Positions 3,489 to 48,976 of a stretch of 61,661 nucleotides of DNA are shown piece after piece. The notes beneath the pieces are model-generated. The model did no database searches. It was not told the DNA's origin and saw only the letters and a list, made by a program, of their open reading frames with translations. Made by a program: the position numbers and the translations under genes. The stretch is from Nonlabens sp. (GTDB lineage: Bacteria; Bacteroidota; Bacteroidia; Flavobacteriales; Flavobacteriaceae), in contig JAHDIQ010000011.1 in NCBI GenBank assembly GCA_020630715.1, forward strand, positions 34,193 through 95,853. The letters are read 5' to 3'. Position 1 is the stretch's first letter; each line of letters starts with the position of its first letter.

Positions 3489-3508
3489 CACTGAGCCTCG
3501 TCGAAGTG
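3489..3508 (+). repeat. Repeat B beside a tRNA fragment
   Basis: CACTGAGCCTCGTCGAAGTG, a copy of the imperfect palindrome family B. Its last base starts a 21-base exact duplicate of the tRNA-fMet 3' end. Confidence 0.85.
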
Positions 3509-45242: not shown

Positions 45243-47411
45243 TTATTTTTTGATCAGCTTTTGTGTTGCTGTCGCGCCAGATGTACTCGTAACTTTTACT
45301 AGATAAATGCCGCTAGTAAGATCGCTTATGTTCACTCGATCACTACTGCTTGTTTTTACGAGTTGACCTTGTAGATTATACATGGCTATTTGATCTATCT
45401 GCTCTTGATCTAGTTCAACTGTGAATTCAGTTGTTGCTGGGTTAGGATATAAACGTGCTTGAAGTGATTTGATATCATCGTTGCTAGCGGTACTATCAGT
45501 AACAGTTATAGGTATGGTAATACTATCAGTGTTTCCAGCAGCATCTGTTGCGATTACAGTGATGTTATAATTTCCTACAGCGTTGAATACGTTAGGTGTA
45601 GAAAGTGAAGTTGACACTGTTCCATTACAATTATCAGAGGTAGAGATCATTAGATCAGTGCTTAAATCAACTACTACTTGCGGTTGTCCATTAAGATCTG
45701 CAGTAAAACTTGCGACACCTGTAATTGTTGGGTCTGTAGTATCATTAACCACAACAGCTTGGGTAAGTGAACTTGTGTTTCCATTACCATCGTCAAAGGT
45801 CCAAGTAATAGTTGTATTACTAGAAATTGTTCCTGTAGTAACGGTTGTACCAGTAACCGTTCCTGCACAATTATCAGTAACCGTAGGTGGTATGATAGTT
45901 TGAACAGTAATTGGGCATTGCGTTGAGACACCTTGTAAATTAATTCCAGCGATACTAGGTGCAAGATCATCTACAACAGTCACCGTTGCTGTTCCTGTAG
46001 CGCTGTTTCCAGACGGATCTGTAACGGTTAATATAACCGGATTTGCTCCTATGTTTGAACAATCAAATATTGAAATGTCTAAGCTATAGTTTAACTGTCC
46101 ACTACTATTATCAGTACTGCCATTATCGATATCGCTAGCCATAATCGTTGCGTTTCCGCTTGCGTCTAAGCTTACATTTATATTTTGAGTTATAACTGTA
46201 GGTGGTGTTGTATCTGTGCTAGATGTTCCAAATTCATAAGGACCCATATCTACGGTAGTATTTACAATTCTTGTATTACCAGCTAAATCTGTGGTTAAAG
46301 TGGTGTACTGGTTATCTCCTGCATCTATAGCTGGTGAACCTGATTGTAACGTATAATCCCCATTTACAGGATCTGTAAACAACGGATTTGCGTTTGAAAC
46401 ATTTGTAGTACTAGAACTACTTGCAAAATTATTATTAGATATACTATTGCTTACACTACCATTTGTATTAGATTCTACCGCATCTGAAAATGTACCCGAA
46501 AAGTTATCACCATTATTCCAAAATATAGAATTATATATATCAACCACAACTGAACCACCACTAGTATTTATTTTATCAATTACCGCTCTACTAGAATCTA
46601 AGTTATTGTCTGAAAATGTAGAATTTATTATCTCAGCAAATTGAGAACCTGAAATATCTTGTCTAAGCCAAATTAAAGAGCCAGTACTAGACACTGAGGT
46701 GTTTTTTGTAAATAGACAGCCTTCAAATATAATGTTTATAGTTCCGTTGGCTCGACCGTAATAAACAGTTCCAAATGACGATTCATTATCTTTAAAGATA
46801 GAATTTGTAATTTCAATATCCGTAAAACTATTATTTGTATCTATAGACCTAATGACACCACCTCTATTTAAGGTATGTTGGAAAAATTTACAGTTATTTA
46901 TTTCTACACTACCTTGTGCATTAACATTAACAGCCGATCCTTCTCTCTGTGAAGTTGCGTTACCATTAGCATTTCCATTGTTAATACTAAAGCCATCTAT
47001 AACTACTCCACCGCCATTAATTTCTACAATTCTATAGCTGTTTTCAGATCGATTTGGGTCAGTGGTAGAAAATACCATATTATCATTACCGTTAATGTCA
47101 CCAGATAAAATAGTCGGGTTCACTTCTGGATCTCTCTGAAATACACTAACTTCTGTGCCATTAAATCCTCCATATATTTCCTGATTATTAGTTAAGGTAA
47201 AACTATCTGTTCTACTAGATCCAGGTATGTACGTACCTGCTTTTACCCAAAATGCGCTAGTTGGGTTATTATTTAGGGCATTTTGTAGATCTGTATAAGC
47301 ATCTGTCCAGCTGGTTCCATCATTTGCTCCTGTAGCACTAGCGTCTACGTATACTTGAGCAGTTGAATACATGCTTATTAAAAAAGCAATTAAAAGTAAA
47401 TGTGTTTTCAT
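45243..47411 (-). CDS. Secreted beta-helix protein with HYR-like and T9SS type A sorting domains
   Basis: A 722-residue product from the ATG at 47411 (signal peptide MKTHLLLIAFLISMYSTAQ; the in-frame ATG at 47435 is less likely). The N-terminal 400 residues contain the pattern YVDASATGANDGTSWTDAYTDLQNAL, then parallel beta-helix strands with many Asn/Ser, and SPAIDAGDNQYTTLTTDLAGNTRIVNTTVDMGPYEFG (choice-of-anchor type). Three or four HYR/Ig-like repeats follow. The end is a Por sorting domain (LYPNPATTEFTVELDQEQ; LTSGIYLVKV; TQKLIKK). Probably a surface adhesin or polysaccharide-binding protein. Confidence 0.88.
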   Translation of the reverse strand: MKTHLLLIAFLISMYSTAQVYVDASATGANDGTSWTDAYTDLQNALNNNPTSAFWVKAGTYIPGSSRTDSFTLTNNQEIYGGFNGTEVSVFQRDPEVNPTILSGDINGNDNMVFSTTDPNRSENSYRIVEINGGGVVIDGFSINNGNANGNATSQREGSAVNVNAQGSVEINNCKFFQHTLNRGGVIRSIDTNNSFTDIEITNSIFKDNESSFGTVYYGRANGTINIIFEGCLFTKNTSVSSTGSLIWLRQDISGSQFAEIINSTFSDNNLDSSRAVIDKINTSGGSVVVDIYNSIFWNNGDNFSGTFSDAVESNTNGSVSNSISNNNFASSSSTTNVSNANPLFTDPVNGDYTLQSGSPAIDAGDNQYTTLTTDLAGNTRIVNTTVDMGPYEFGTSSTDTTPPTVITQNINVSLDASGNATIMASDIDNGSTDNSSGQLNYSLDISIFDCSNIGANPVILTVTDPSGNSATGTATVTVVDDLAPSIAGINLQGVSTQCPITVQTIIPPTVTDNCAGTVTGTTVTTGTISSNTTITWTFDDGNGNTSSLTQAVVVNDTTDPTITGVASFTADLNGQPQVVVDLSTDLMISTSDNCNGTVSTSLSTPNVFNAVGNYNITVIATDAAGNTDSITIPITVTDSTASNDDIKSLQARLYPNPATTEFTVELDQEQIDQIAMYNLQGQLVKTSSSDRVNISDLTSGIYLVKVTSTSGATATQKLIKK

Positions 47412-47767
47412 GATTGAATTGATTATTAATTTCAATCACAAAAGTGTGGTATTAAATAACCTGTTTTAAAAACACTTTCTGAATTGCAGTATAAGTTGCT
47501 GAAATGGCGCTTCGGCTACGCTCAGTGACCTCTGTCCGTTTCATAGATTTGAGAAATCTATTTTAGTTATACGCTTTGTTCAGACGCCATTTTGTGATAT
47601 AATAGATGCAGAGAAATTTTTGCAAATGATGGTTGAGCGTATATCAATTGAGTTATTTATTATTAATAAGCTTCAAAATAATGTTGAATTTAGATCACTG
47701 AGCGCGTAGTCAAAGTCACCTGTAGTAGTCATGAGATTTTAGGTCACTGAACGCAGTGGAAGTGAGC
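47412..47767. other. Repeat-filled intergenic region with three repeat B copies
   Basis: No gene. Repeat B copies are at 47507-47530 (reverse, GCGCTTCGGCTACGCTCAGTG plus GACC), 47693-47720 (forward, degenerate) and 47742-47763 (forward). The rest is unstructured AT-rich DNA. Confidence 0.7.
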
Positions 47768-47768
47768 T
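47718..47768. repeat. 51-bp flanking repeat, left copy (repeat B composite)
   Basis: Matches 48130-48180 at 47 of 51 bases, same orientation. It contains the shared spacer GTAGTCATGAGATTTTA, then a repeat B copy, and its last base is in the GIY-YIG stop codon. Confidence 0.9.
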
Positions 47769-48085
47769 CACAAATACTTATCCTTAAAATATATATGGCT
47801 AGTTTCATTTAAGCATCTGGCAAGTTTCTTCAATTCTGAAATATTACCACTTATTAGAGCTTTTTTTTTTGCTCTTGTCCACTTTTTAATTTGATGTTCT
47901 CTGTTAAAAGCATAATCTATGCGATCAAAAGATTCAAGATATACGACTGCTTGCGGTGGAAACTTTTTAGTATGGTTTGCTCCTAAACCTGAGAAATGTT
48001 TTTTAAGTCTACTTTCTAGAAACTTTGTACTACCTGTATAATAGCTTTCGTTAGAACATTGTAATATGTATACATAGCAATTCAT
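47768..48085 (-). CDS. GIY-YIG nuclease-family protein (UPF0213/URI-like)
   Basis: A 105-residue protein with the GIY-YIG core: YVYILQCSNESYYTGST, then LESRLKKH (Arg), VVYLESFD, and the Glu/Lys cluster NREHQIKKWTRAKKKALI. The single-domain form is common in Bacteroidota and its role is not established. It is bracketed by 51-bp direct repeats containing repeat B, which makes it the likely centre of a small mobile or repeat-maintaining unit. Homing endonucleases and UvrC share the fold; this protein lacks other domains. Confidence 0.9.
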   Translation of the reverse strand: MNCYVYILQCSNESYYTGSTKFLESRLKKHFSGLGANHTKKFPPQAVVYLESFDRIDYAFNREHQIKKWTRAKKKALISGNISELKKLARCLNETSHIYFKDKYL

Positions 48086-48107
48086 TGAGGTAATTTATAA
48101 ATAAAAT

Positions 48108-48223
48108 GTGACTTCGGCTACGCTCCGTCACCTCTAGTAGTCATGAGATTTTAGGTCACTAAACGCAGTCTAAGTGAGCTTTAGCAATCATTAAGTTTTA
48201 GGTCACTGAGCGCAGTCGAAGTG
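48108..48223. repeat. Right repeat cluster: 51-bp copy and repeat B copies
   Basis: 48108-48132 is a reverse repeat B; 48130-48180 is the right copy of the 51-bp repeat (B at 48154-48179); 48201-48223 is the most intact B (CACTGAGCGCAGTCGAAGTG inside). The last ends at the LytTR gene's stop codon. Confidence 0.9.
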
Positions 48224-48976
48224 CTAAAACAACTCCTTAATCATCCCAAAAAACTCTTCACGTTTATCTCTAGATATAGGTACTAATTTACCATTATCCA
48301 TCACTAGATGTCCACCTTCTTTTTTATTGAATTCTTTTATAGAGTTGATATTGATGAGGTAGGAGCGATGTGGTTTGTAAAACTGTGCGCTATCGTGCAA
48401 CTGTTCTGCAAAATGTTTTAGTGGCTTACATATCATTTCTTTATGACCTGACTTTAGGAAAAATGTAGTGTACATTCCGTCTGCTTCTAGATATAGAATG
48501 TCATTATGTTCTACAAAAATGATTCCTCTAGGAACATCCAGAGCAATCTTATTGCTAGATAGTTTTTTAAATGACTGCTTTAATTCCTCTAGGTTAGTAG
48601 TGATGTTATGTTGCTCTTTTAATTTTATAGCTTTATCTACAGCACTTACTAATTCTAGATGGTCTAAAGGTTTGAGTAAATAATCTACCGCACTTAATTT
48701 AAAAGCTTCTATCGCATACTGATTATAAGCTGTGGTAAAAATGATTTGGAAATCTATTTTATGATCATCAAAAAATTCTAAAATCTGTAATCCTGAATAC
48801 TTAGGCATTTCTATGTCTAGAAAAACCAATTCTGGATGCTCTGATTTTATTAAAGCCACACCAGTTTCTAGATCTTCTGCTTGATGGAAAGTGGTGATGC
48901 TAGGACAGTGTTCTTGCAATAATGTATGGAGTAGTTTGCGTGCCTTAGGCTCGTCGTCTATAATGATGGCTTTCAT
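48224..48976 (-). CDS. LytTR-family response regulator
   Basis: A 250-residue protein with a receiver domain (acidic DDE near 7-9, phospho-Asp in LVFLDIEMP at about 55, Lys in LLKPLD) and a C-terminal LytTR DNA-binding domain (DILYLEADGMYTTFFLKSGH, FYKPHRSYLININSI). LytTR regulators bind direct repeats upstream of target genes. Its start overlaps the kinase stop by 4 bases, so they are coupled. Confidence 0.94.
   Translation of the reverse strand: MKAIIIDDEPKARKLLHTLLQEHCPSITTFHQAEDLETGVALIKSEHPELVFLDIEMPKYSGLQILEFFDDHKIDFQIIFTTAYNQYAIEAFKLSAVDYLLKPLDHLELVSAVDKAIKLKEQHNITTNLEELKQSFKKLSSNKIALDVPRGIIFVEHNDILYLEADGMYTTFFLKSGHKEMICKPLKHFAEQLHDSAQFYKPHRSYLININSIKEFNKKEGGHLVMDNGKLVPISRDKREEFFGMIKELF

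Follow-up and report, generated by a model that had tools for sequence, protein, structure and literature searches.

What does a small nuclease gene do in the midst of a crowd of short palindromes, and, if the two belong together, does the nuclease spread the palindromes? The window (the whole 61,661-nt stretch of DNA analysed, from a source genome of 2.98 Mb in 17 contigs) contains, at positions 47768–48085 on the minus strand, an open reading frame for a single-domain GIY-YIG nuclease of 105 residues that matches Pfam PF01541 (GIY-YIG) at 63.1 bits, against a cut-off of 22.6. PF01541 is the sole domain match of the protein in Pfam, a Y1 (HUH) transposase domain being absent by the same search, and only about 30 residues lie beyond the nuclease domain. 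In alignment A1 (16 rows), residues Y17, R27, H31, and E64 are invariant and Y7 is nearly invariant; membership of the GIY-YIG family is thus met both by score and by the conservation of the Y, Y, R, and E columns, which we presume to have catalytic roles. As the sequence-only reading had stated, the gene lies between two 51-bp composite direct repeats (47718–47768 and 48130–48180, both on the plus strand), which are identical at 47 of 51 positions.

The palindromes of the cluster, termed B, are imperfect, have the form GGTC-ACTGAGCGNAGYCGAAGT-G, and were located as matches to the 20-mer CACTGAGCGCAGTCGAAGTG with at most five mismatches. The window has six such sites; 20 two-base-block shuffles have a mean of 0.1 and a maximum of one. 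Five sites surround the gene: an exact consensus copy at 48204–48223 (plus strand), with its GGTC tag at 48201–48204, abutting the stop codon of a LytTR gene; a copy with three mismatches at 48157–48176 (plus strand), within the second 51-bp repeat; a copy with five mismatches and GAC/GTC arms at 48110–48129 (minus strand), the nearest upstream of the gene; a copy with two mismatches at 47745–47764 (plus strand), the nearest downstream of the gene and within the first 51-bp repeat; and an outermost copy with three mismatches at 47508–47527 (minus strand). Sequence comparison adds a copy broken by an indel at 47692–47716 (plus strand). The crowding at the gene that had been claimed is therefore real, with five sites plus the disrupted copy, but elsewhere in the window there is one lone B-like site (3489–3508, plus strand, three mismatches) and not the two that had been counted. 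The nearest palindromes on either side of the gene are inverted, with GGT(C) tags pointing outward with respect to the gene's direction, and the layout of RAYT loci, a gene between two inverted REPs, is met. The whole genome contains ten B sites with at most three mismatches, five of them in the window and four of these at the GIY-YIG locus; a reversed-pattern control finds none.

Gene and palindromes form an insert (47506–48223) that is absent from three related genomes. In G010 (LytTR orthologue 79% identical), G002, and G015 (74%), the secreted-protein gene comes after the LytTR gene, and the GIY-YIG gene is missing. The corresponding neighbours in the window, both identified as open reading frames on the minus strand, are a 250-residue response regulator of LytTR type by inspection (48224–48976; left neighbour of the empty site) and a 730-residue protein of secreted type by inspection (45243–47435; right neighbour). 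The fetched stretches of the three empty sites contain neither B nor the core palindrome, GAGC-N(1–4)-GTCGA, that we use below. One palindrome, set at the LytTR stop codon, opens the extra DNA; at the other end, homology is clear again directly past the 47508 palindrome, where the boundary is not exact to the base. By eye, several relatives have a response-regulator gene and then a secreted-looking gene, not the same protein in all, in a position comparable to that of 45243–47435.

Two further sets of sites show the same pattern. Downstream of yajC (identified by inspection), three of 23 genus genomes (G004, G007, G018) carry the gene with core palindromes, perhaps as a single event, and the other 20 carry neither in the 1.3 kb read. 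Between sufB and sufC, Azospirillum lipoferum 4B has a palindrome pair, a GIY-YIG gene, and another palindrome pair; in A. ramasamyi, sp. B510, and A. oryzae the sufB-sufC gap is short and without such palindromes, and a stretch of about 92 bp of the 4B insert matches other 4B replicons at 83–87% identity. At the loci compared, gene and palindromes are present or absent together. It had been suggested that empty sites might keep one 51-bp copy; empty sites do exist, but none of the three sets holds a palindrome of the element's type, indicating that the cluster came or went with the gene and left no 51-bp copy behind.

A search with the window protein in 59 related genomes gave matches in 32, from which 30 loci were fetched (L018–L047). 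The 20-mer B with at most five mismatches matches only nine of these 30 loci, one of them (L037) by a single weak match only, which rules out one fixed motif for all loci. Reading of the flanks showed other palindrome types at the other loci, and we therefore adopted a score that uses no motif: the 300 bp on one side of the gene are compared with the 300 bp on the other, and the best match in inverted orientation counts, with a threshold of at least 16. After exclusion of two loci on short contigs (L034 and L037), 19 of 28 GIY-YIG loci, found by protein alone, reach the threshold (median 17.5). Crosswise pairing of the flanks of different loci (756 pairs) sets the noise level at a mean of 10.8 and a 95th percentile of 15, and in control DNA (20 stretches of 20 kb, 400 kb in total, from 20 of the scored-locus genomes) only 2 of 74 genes with gaps of at least 80 bp on both sides reach 16 (3 of all 338 control genes; Fisher p = 6e-12). 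In a second set, taken from a phylum sample of 296 genomes in which a profile search found the family in 187 (the most matches in one genome being at least 16), 16 of 29 loci, the locus of the window not counted, reach the threshold; for the 122 genes of all 116 loci taken together, the number is 53.

The core motif gives the same picture. Over 57 loci, the 100 bp next to the gene hold 6.4 copies per kb and the successive bins 3.7, 1.9, and 1.4 per kb, with 0 beyond 1.1 kb; the 400-kb control DNA has 0.025 per kb, which makes a roughly 250-fold excess within 100 bp. A core lies within 350 bp in 41 of the 57 loci. In a separate set of named genomes, searched by protein only (Flavicella, Gelidibacter, Lacinutrix, Aequorivita, Algibacter, and metagenome-assembled genomes of Omnitrophota, Gottesmanbacteria, Zambryskibacteria, and others), 20 of 23 loci have the core, or a GCCGA variant of it, no more than 400 bp from the gene; core and variant together reach 3.75 per kb there versus 0.024 per kb more than 1 kb away. 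By inverted-match score, 8 of 22 reach 16. Counted by genome, the gene is present in all 16 related genomes with at least three core copies versus 16 of the 43 others, and in 45 of 51 such genomes of the phylum sample versus 142 of 245 others, the genomes in these counts not being phylogenetically independent. The sequence-only reading had proposed a RAYT-like pairing of nuclease and repeat, to be refuted if gene and repeat proved unassociated or if orthologues always sat at one repeat-free locus. Neither is the case: the genes occupy many loci, with palindromes, and empty sites exist. The pairing is supported, but it is not special to repeat B, and clades differ in palindrome type.

Palindrome type tracks the protein more closely than it tracks the genome. 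The genome of the window itself contains two more single-domain genes of this kind, L130 and L131 (contigs C10 and C17), each with a different palindrome array: one lies among ATCGAGCGACAGTCGAGAT repeats, the other in a TTGTCATTCTGAGCTTGCCGAAGAATCTC array. A further GIY-YIG gene of this genome (L003, contig C6; a 128-residue frame beside a tRNA-like sequence, by eye) is without such palindromes and has a shared GAGGCTTTTTTGTTTTATAGAAG tract on both sides. Across taxonomic families, and over the 122 genes, the proportion of flank pairs that score at least 18 is 0.4% at 25–35% protein identity, 12.5% at 45–55%, and 21.6% at 55–65%; the across-family correlation of flank and protein is r = 0.36, versus a mean of 0.21 in within-family permutations of the flanks, none of 2000 of which reaches the observed value. 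The flank is closer to that of protein relatives in other genomes for 39 genes and to that of own-genome paralogues for nine, with five ties. Same-genome paralogues share flanks in 2 of 58 pairs below 45% identity and in 10 of 18 pairs at 45% or above, some of the latter being neighbouring copies. Co-descent of linked DNA could account for part of this co-variation; neutral DNA, for its part, should not remain alignable at such protein distances.

Dispersed copies provide a test that does not rest on linkage. Outside the fetched loci, the median number of core copies is ten in 21 genomes with a gene flanked by class-I palindromes versus zero in 43 genomes in which the fetched genes are flanked otherwise (p = 1e-6), and at least three copies are present in 18 of the 21 versus 13 of the 43. 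Not all GIY-YIG genes of these genomes were fetched for the test, and two patterns, slightly unlike each other, were used for the counts. The pairing of nuclease and palindrome type is specific, and the same type is dispersed in the genomes that carry such a gene.

Many of these palindromes are tagged. Near Bacteroidota genes, 92 of 209 core palindromes are preceded by TGTC, CGTC, or GGTC and then A (82, 6, and 4, respectively; AGTC and A precede another 5); the 5′ side has a majority TGTCA at −9 to −5, and GTC is present in 128 of 209 5′ flanks versus 59 of 199 3′ flanks. Core palindromes lie on both sides of 41 of 105 Bacteroidota genes, inverted and with tags outward in 20 of the 41; for 42 of the 105 genes the adjoining 300 bp contain none of the searched palindrome classes, although some of these genes show other classes by eye. 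A GTAG-type tag is not met, the window having GGTC and Bacteroidota mostly TGTC where a tag is seen. GGTC is one base off the tags of the CGTC superfamily, and several proteobacterial loci have CGTC or CCTC.

The pairing extends to other phyla. Of 16 loci taken from plasmid and chromid records, eight pass the flank-score threshold, those of Planktothrix, Rhizobium sp. CIAT894, Aeromonas, Sinorhizobium meliloti, Azospirillum, Novosphingobium, Sphingobium, and Methylobacterium, with palindromes that begin CGTCATTCCC in Aeromonas, CGTCATCCCC in Azospirillum, CGTCACCCC in Sphingobium, CGTCGCCCC in Novosphingobium, and CCTCATCCC in Sinorhizobium. Below the score are Spirosoma, which nevertheless has palindromes on both sides by eye, and Photobacterium and Rhizobium tumorigenes, each with a complete or partial palindrome on one side; no palindromes were seen, within this set, at Sphingomonas, Acetoanaerobium, Variovorax, and two yazA-type operons. 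The Planktothrix plasmid gene and its palindromes (L108) lie between an MmeI-type restriction gene and drmA of DISARM, and a relative in Sphingomonas paeninsulae (L117), at which no palindromes were seen, lies between rnc and era. Some members of the family reside in housekeeping operons without palindromes, as is the case for yazA. The nearest solved relatives of the nuclease are in fact the single-domain UPF0213/YazA proteins (PDB 1zg2, E 6e-22; 1ywl, E 5e-15; profile search), and the difference is one of setting: the two yazA-type genes examined lie in a trmNF-yazA-rsmI-like operon without palindromes. In NCBIfam, no family name scores above cut-off for six proteins.

In Neisseria gonorrhoeae, repeats such as ATTCCCGCGCAGGCGGGAAT lie on both sides of a GIY-YIG gene and fit the dRS3 pattern given in the accessible part of PMC3898611. 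Di Nocera et al. (2013; PMC3733652) defined the CGTC superfamily of REPs, which includes Neisseria dRS3 and which, as far as the available part of that survey goes, apparently lacks a dedicated transposase, its mover being left open. Our palindromes resemble those described there in palindromic form and, at some loci or in some genomes, in a CGTC (or TGTC, CCTC) tag and in inverted dimers, and CGTC-like repeats adjoin a GIY-YIG gene in Neisseria and in A. lipoferum and S. meliloti, two species named in the portion seen of PMC3733652. They differ in that the window tag is GGTC and the window stem imperfect and, with respect to the superfamily as described in that portion, in having a GIY-YIG gene as candidate in place of no dedicated transposase.

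We consider it likely that the insert is a REP-type element consisting of a GIY-YIG-clade nuclease gene and palindromes recognised by that nuclease, the recognition being inferred, without biochemistry. Several observations count against this reading: the 42 of 105 Bacteroidota genes without a searched palindrome class, the flank score attained by only eight of the 16 plasmid and chromid loci and eight of the 22 named-genome loci, the family members in palindrome-free housekeeping operons, the weak predicted folding of repeat B, and the possible share of co-descent in the co-variation. Four other explanations must be weighed against it, and two of them draw on exceptions to the association. 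By the phylum-sample profile, 6 of the 51 genomes with at least three core copies lack the family. Five of the six have 3–14 core copies; in these, PF01541 matches fall only in long frames, with nothing in G315 and, in G218, additional weak matches in frames of 295 and 118 residues. The sixth, G060 (3.9 Mb), has 162 core copies and neither a single-domain GIY-YIG gene nor a Y1_Tnp match, and no candidate enzyme was found in the 400 kb of neighbourhoods read. No common enzyme for the exceptions emerged, G060 having matches of neither kind.

The gene could be a selfish, free-standing homing gene whose nuclease targets palindromes that something else spreads. GIY-YIG is a homing-endonuclease fold, a weak match to a group I intron endonuclease model exists in NCBIfam (E 0.003, below cut-off), and G060 is rich in palindromes without the gene. 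The empty sites, however, hold no palindrome of the element's type, indicating that the gene did not land in a pre-existing palindrome there (a different recognition site is not excluded), and dispersed copies follow the type that flanks the gene. In comparison with GIY-YIG homing endonucleases, no intron or intein is seen at the window locus, the targets would be many dispersed palindromes, and only about 30 residues are available beyond the nuclease domain. We regard this explanation as unlikely.

Still less probable, in our judgement, is that some third enzyme carries or targets both gene and palindromes; a phage integrase, as has been proposed in the case of dRS3, would be an example. In favour of this, dRS3 is where the Nf1 phage integrates, according to the part of PMC3898611 available, and G060 has no matches to single-domain GIY-YIG or Y1_Tnp. 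Against this, a GIY-YIG gene recurs beside such palindromes, co-varying with them, across phyla, other gene families not having been compared. No viral carriage was found in viral contigs in one scan with a paralogue query, which reaches close relatives only.

It is very unlikely that RAYT (Y1/HUH) transposases spread these palindromes as ordinary REPs and that the GIY-YIG gene is among them by accident. Y1_Tnp matches are present in 30 of the 59 related genomes, the window's own included, and isolated core copies occur near Y1_Tnp genes: single ones at about 110 and 830 bp in G218, and one, of 48 in that genome, at about 440 bp in G014. Nonetheless, none of ten fetched Y1_Tnp loci has a core within 400 bp; seven of the ten have inverted flanks of their own at a score of at least 16 (for example GCGGACTTAAGTCCGC); in the nine genomes compared, these flanks match GIY-YIG flanks only at 12–16, where the noise has its 95th percentile at 15; and six genomes (G004, G007, G019, G022, G027, G036) have at least three core copies and a GIY-YIG gene without a Y1_Tnp match. 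In addition, no RAYT is flanked by CGTC repeats according to the available part of PMC3733652. We therefore reject RAYTs as drivers of the core palindromes. At three Y1_Tnp loci of the window's genus (L050, L053, L057), a GTGCGGACTTAAGTCCGCAC palindrome brackets the gene, partly decayed on one side in two of them. Finally, terminators or regulatory hairpins of the GIY-YIG gene would lie, as these palindromes do, in intergenic DNA on both sides of it, but they would not explain same-type copies dispersed outside the fetched GIY-YIG loci or the joint absence of gene and palindromes at empty sites, and this reading is hardly tenable.

The REP-type element that we prefer resembles REPs and REPINs with their RAYT (TnpA-REP) genes in several respects: a gene flanked by inverted tagged palindromes that are also dispersed in the genome, a palindrome type specific to each enzyme, and, in some genomes, inverted pairs as units (PMC2817692 and PMC3116915, each seen in part). 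The differences are a GIY-YIG enzyme here and a Y1/HUH transposase there, and a TGTC, CGTC, or GGTC tag here and GTAG there. The gene-palindrome pairing recurs in many bacteria, each gene having its own type, and the GIY-YIG enzyme may thus be the missing spreading engine: the clade is the best candidate for a dedicated enzyme of CGTC-type REPs, with a RAYT-like role and an unrelated fold. More broadly, and with somewhat less assurance, we favour the view that the clade of single-domain GIY-YIG nucleases present in Bacteroidota, Pseudomonadota, Cyanobacteria, and candidate phyla constitutes a second REP spreader with an evolutionary origin of its own, which drives the CGTC/TGTC superfamily, Neisseria dRS3 included, with its own palindrome type for each enzyme clade. 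In that case, the spreading of REPs would have arisen two or more times, by way of enzymes that are not related. Among the repeats in the intergenic DNA of bacteria, short palindromes are common, and a small, specific enzyme family with matched DNA partners makes the question of the CGTC mover directly testable. Among the matches listed, no paper linked GIY-YIG proteins to CGTC-type REPs; preprints and most subscription papers were outside the scope of the search.

Binding, cutting, and copying or spreading of the palindromes by the GIY-YIG protein are inferred, with no biochemistry behind them. The protein, probably as a dimer, would bind the tagged palindrome as a hairpin or cruciform and cut it, and host repair or replication might then copy palindromes, or inverted pairs of them, to new places. 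GIY-YIG homing endonucleases have the same catalytic fold and provide a candidate for break-induced copying. GIY-YIG enzymes hydrolyse DNA without a covalent intermediate, for which reason we think of copying through host break repair, as in homing, rather than by strand transfer. The gene itself would move rarely while the palindromes spread: among the matches listed, where the whole gene was noticed in near-equal copies, these are no more than about 7 kb apart or lie at the two ends of one contig, suggesting that the gene is seldom mobile. RAYT genes are likewise reported to move rarely, in the part of PMC3116915 available.

The folding of the palindromes varies. In a standard folding model no stable single hairpin was found for repeat B (−2.0 kcal/mol, z 0.37), and two proteobacterial palindromes do fold (−9.7 and −8.9 kcal/mol, z −4.6 and −4.2). 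Repeat B does not meet the superfamily trait of a stable stem of 8–9 bp with a loop of 4–5 nt; its arms contain GA/AG mismatches, which folding models may handle poorly. Dispersed inverted-pair units were not shown in the window's genome. Inverted pairs are seen in G060, G230, and G129, and a unit recurs in A. lipoferum 4B. Many core copies within the 400 kb of G060 sampled are arranged as inverted pairs; for two such pairs the folding energies are −21 and −28 kcal/mol (z −6.7 and −10.4). The G060 loci L204–L223 contain REPIN-like units of about 75 bp with TGTCAT ends, often beside GTCATTGCGAGGAACGAAGCAATC palindromes.
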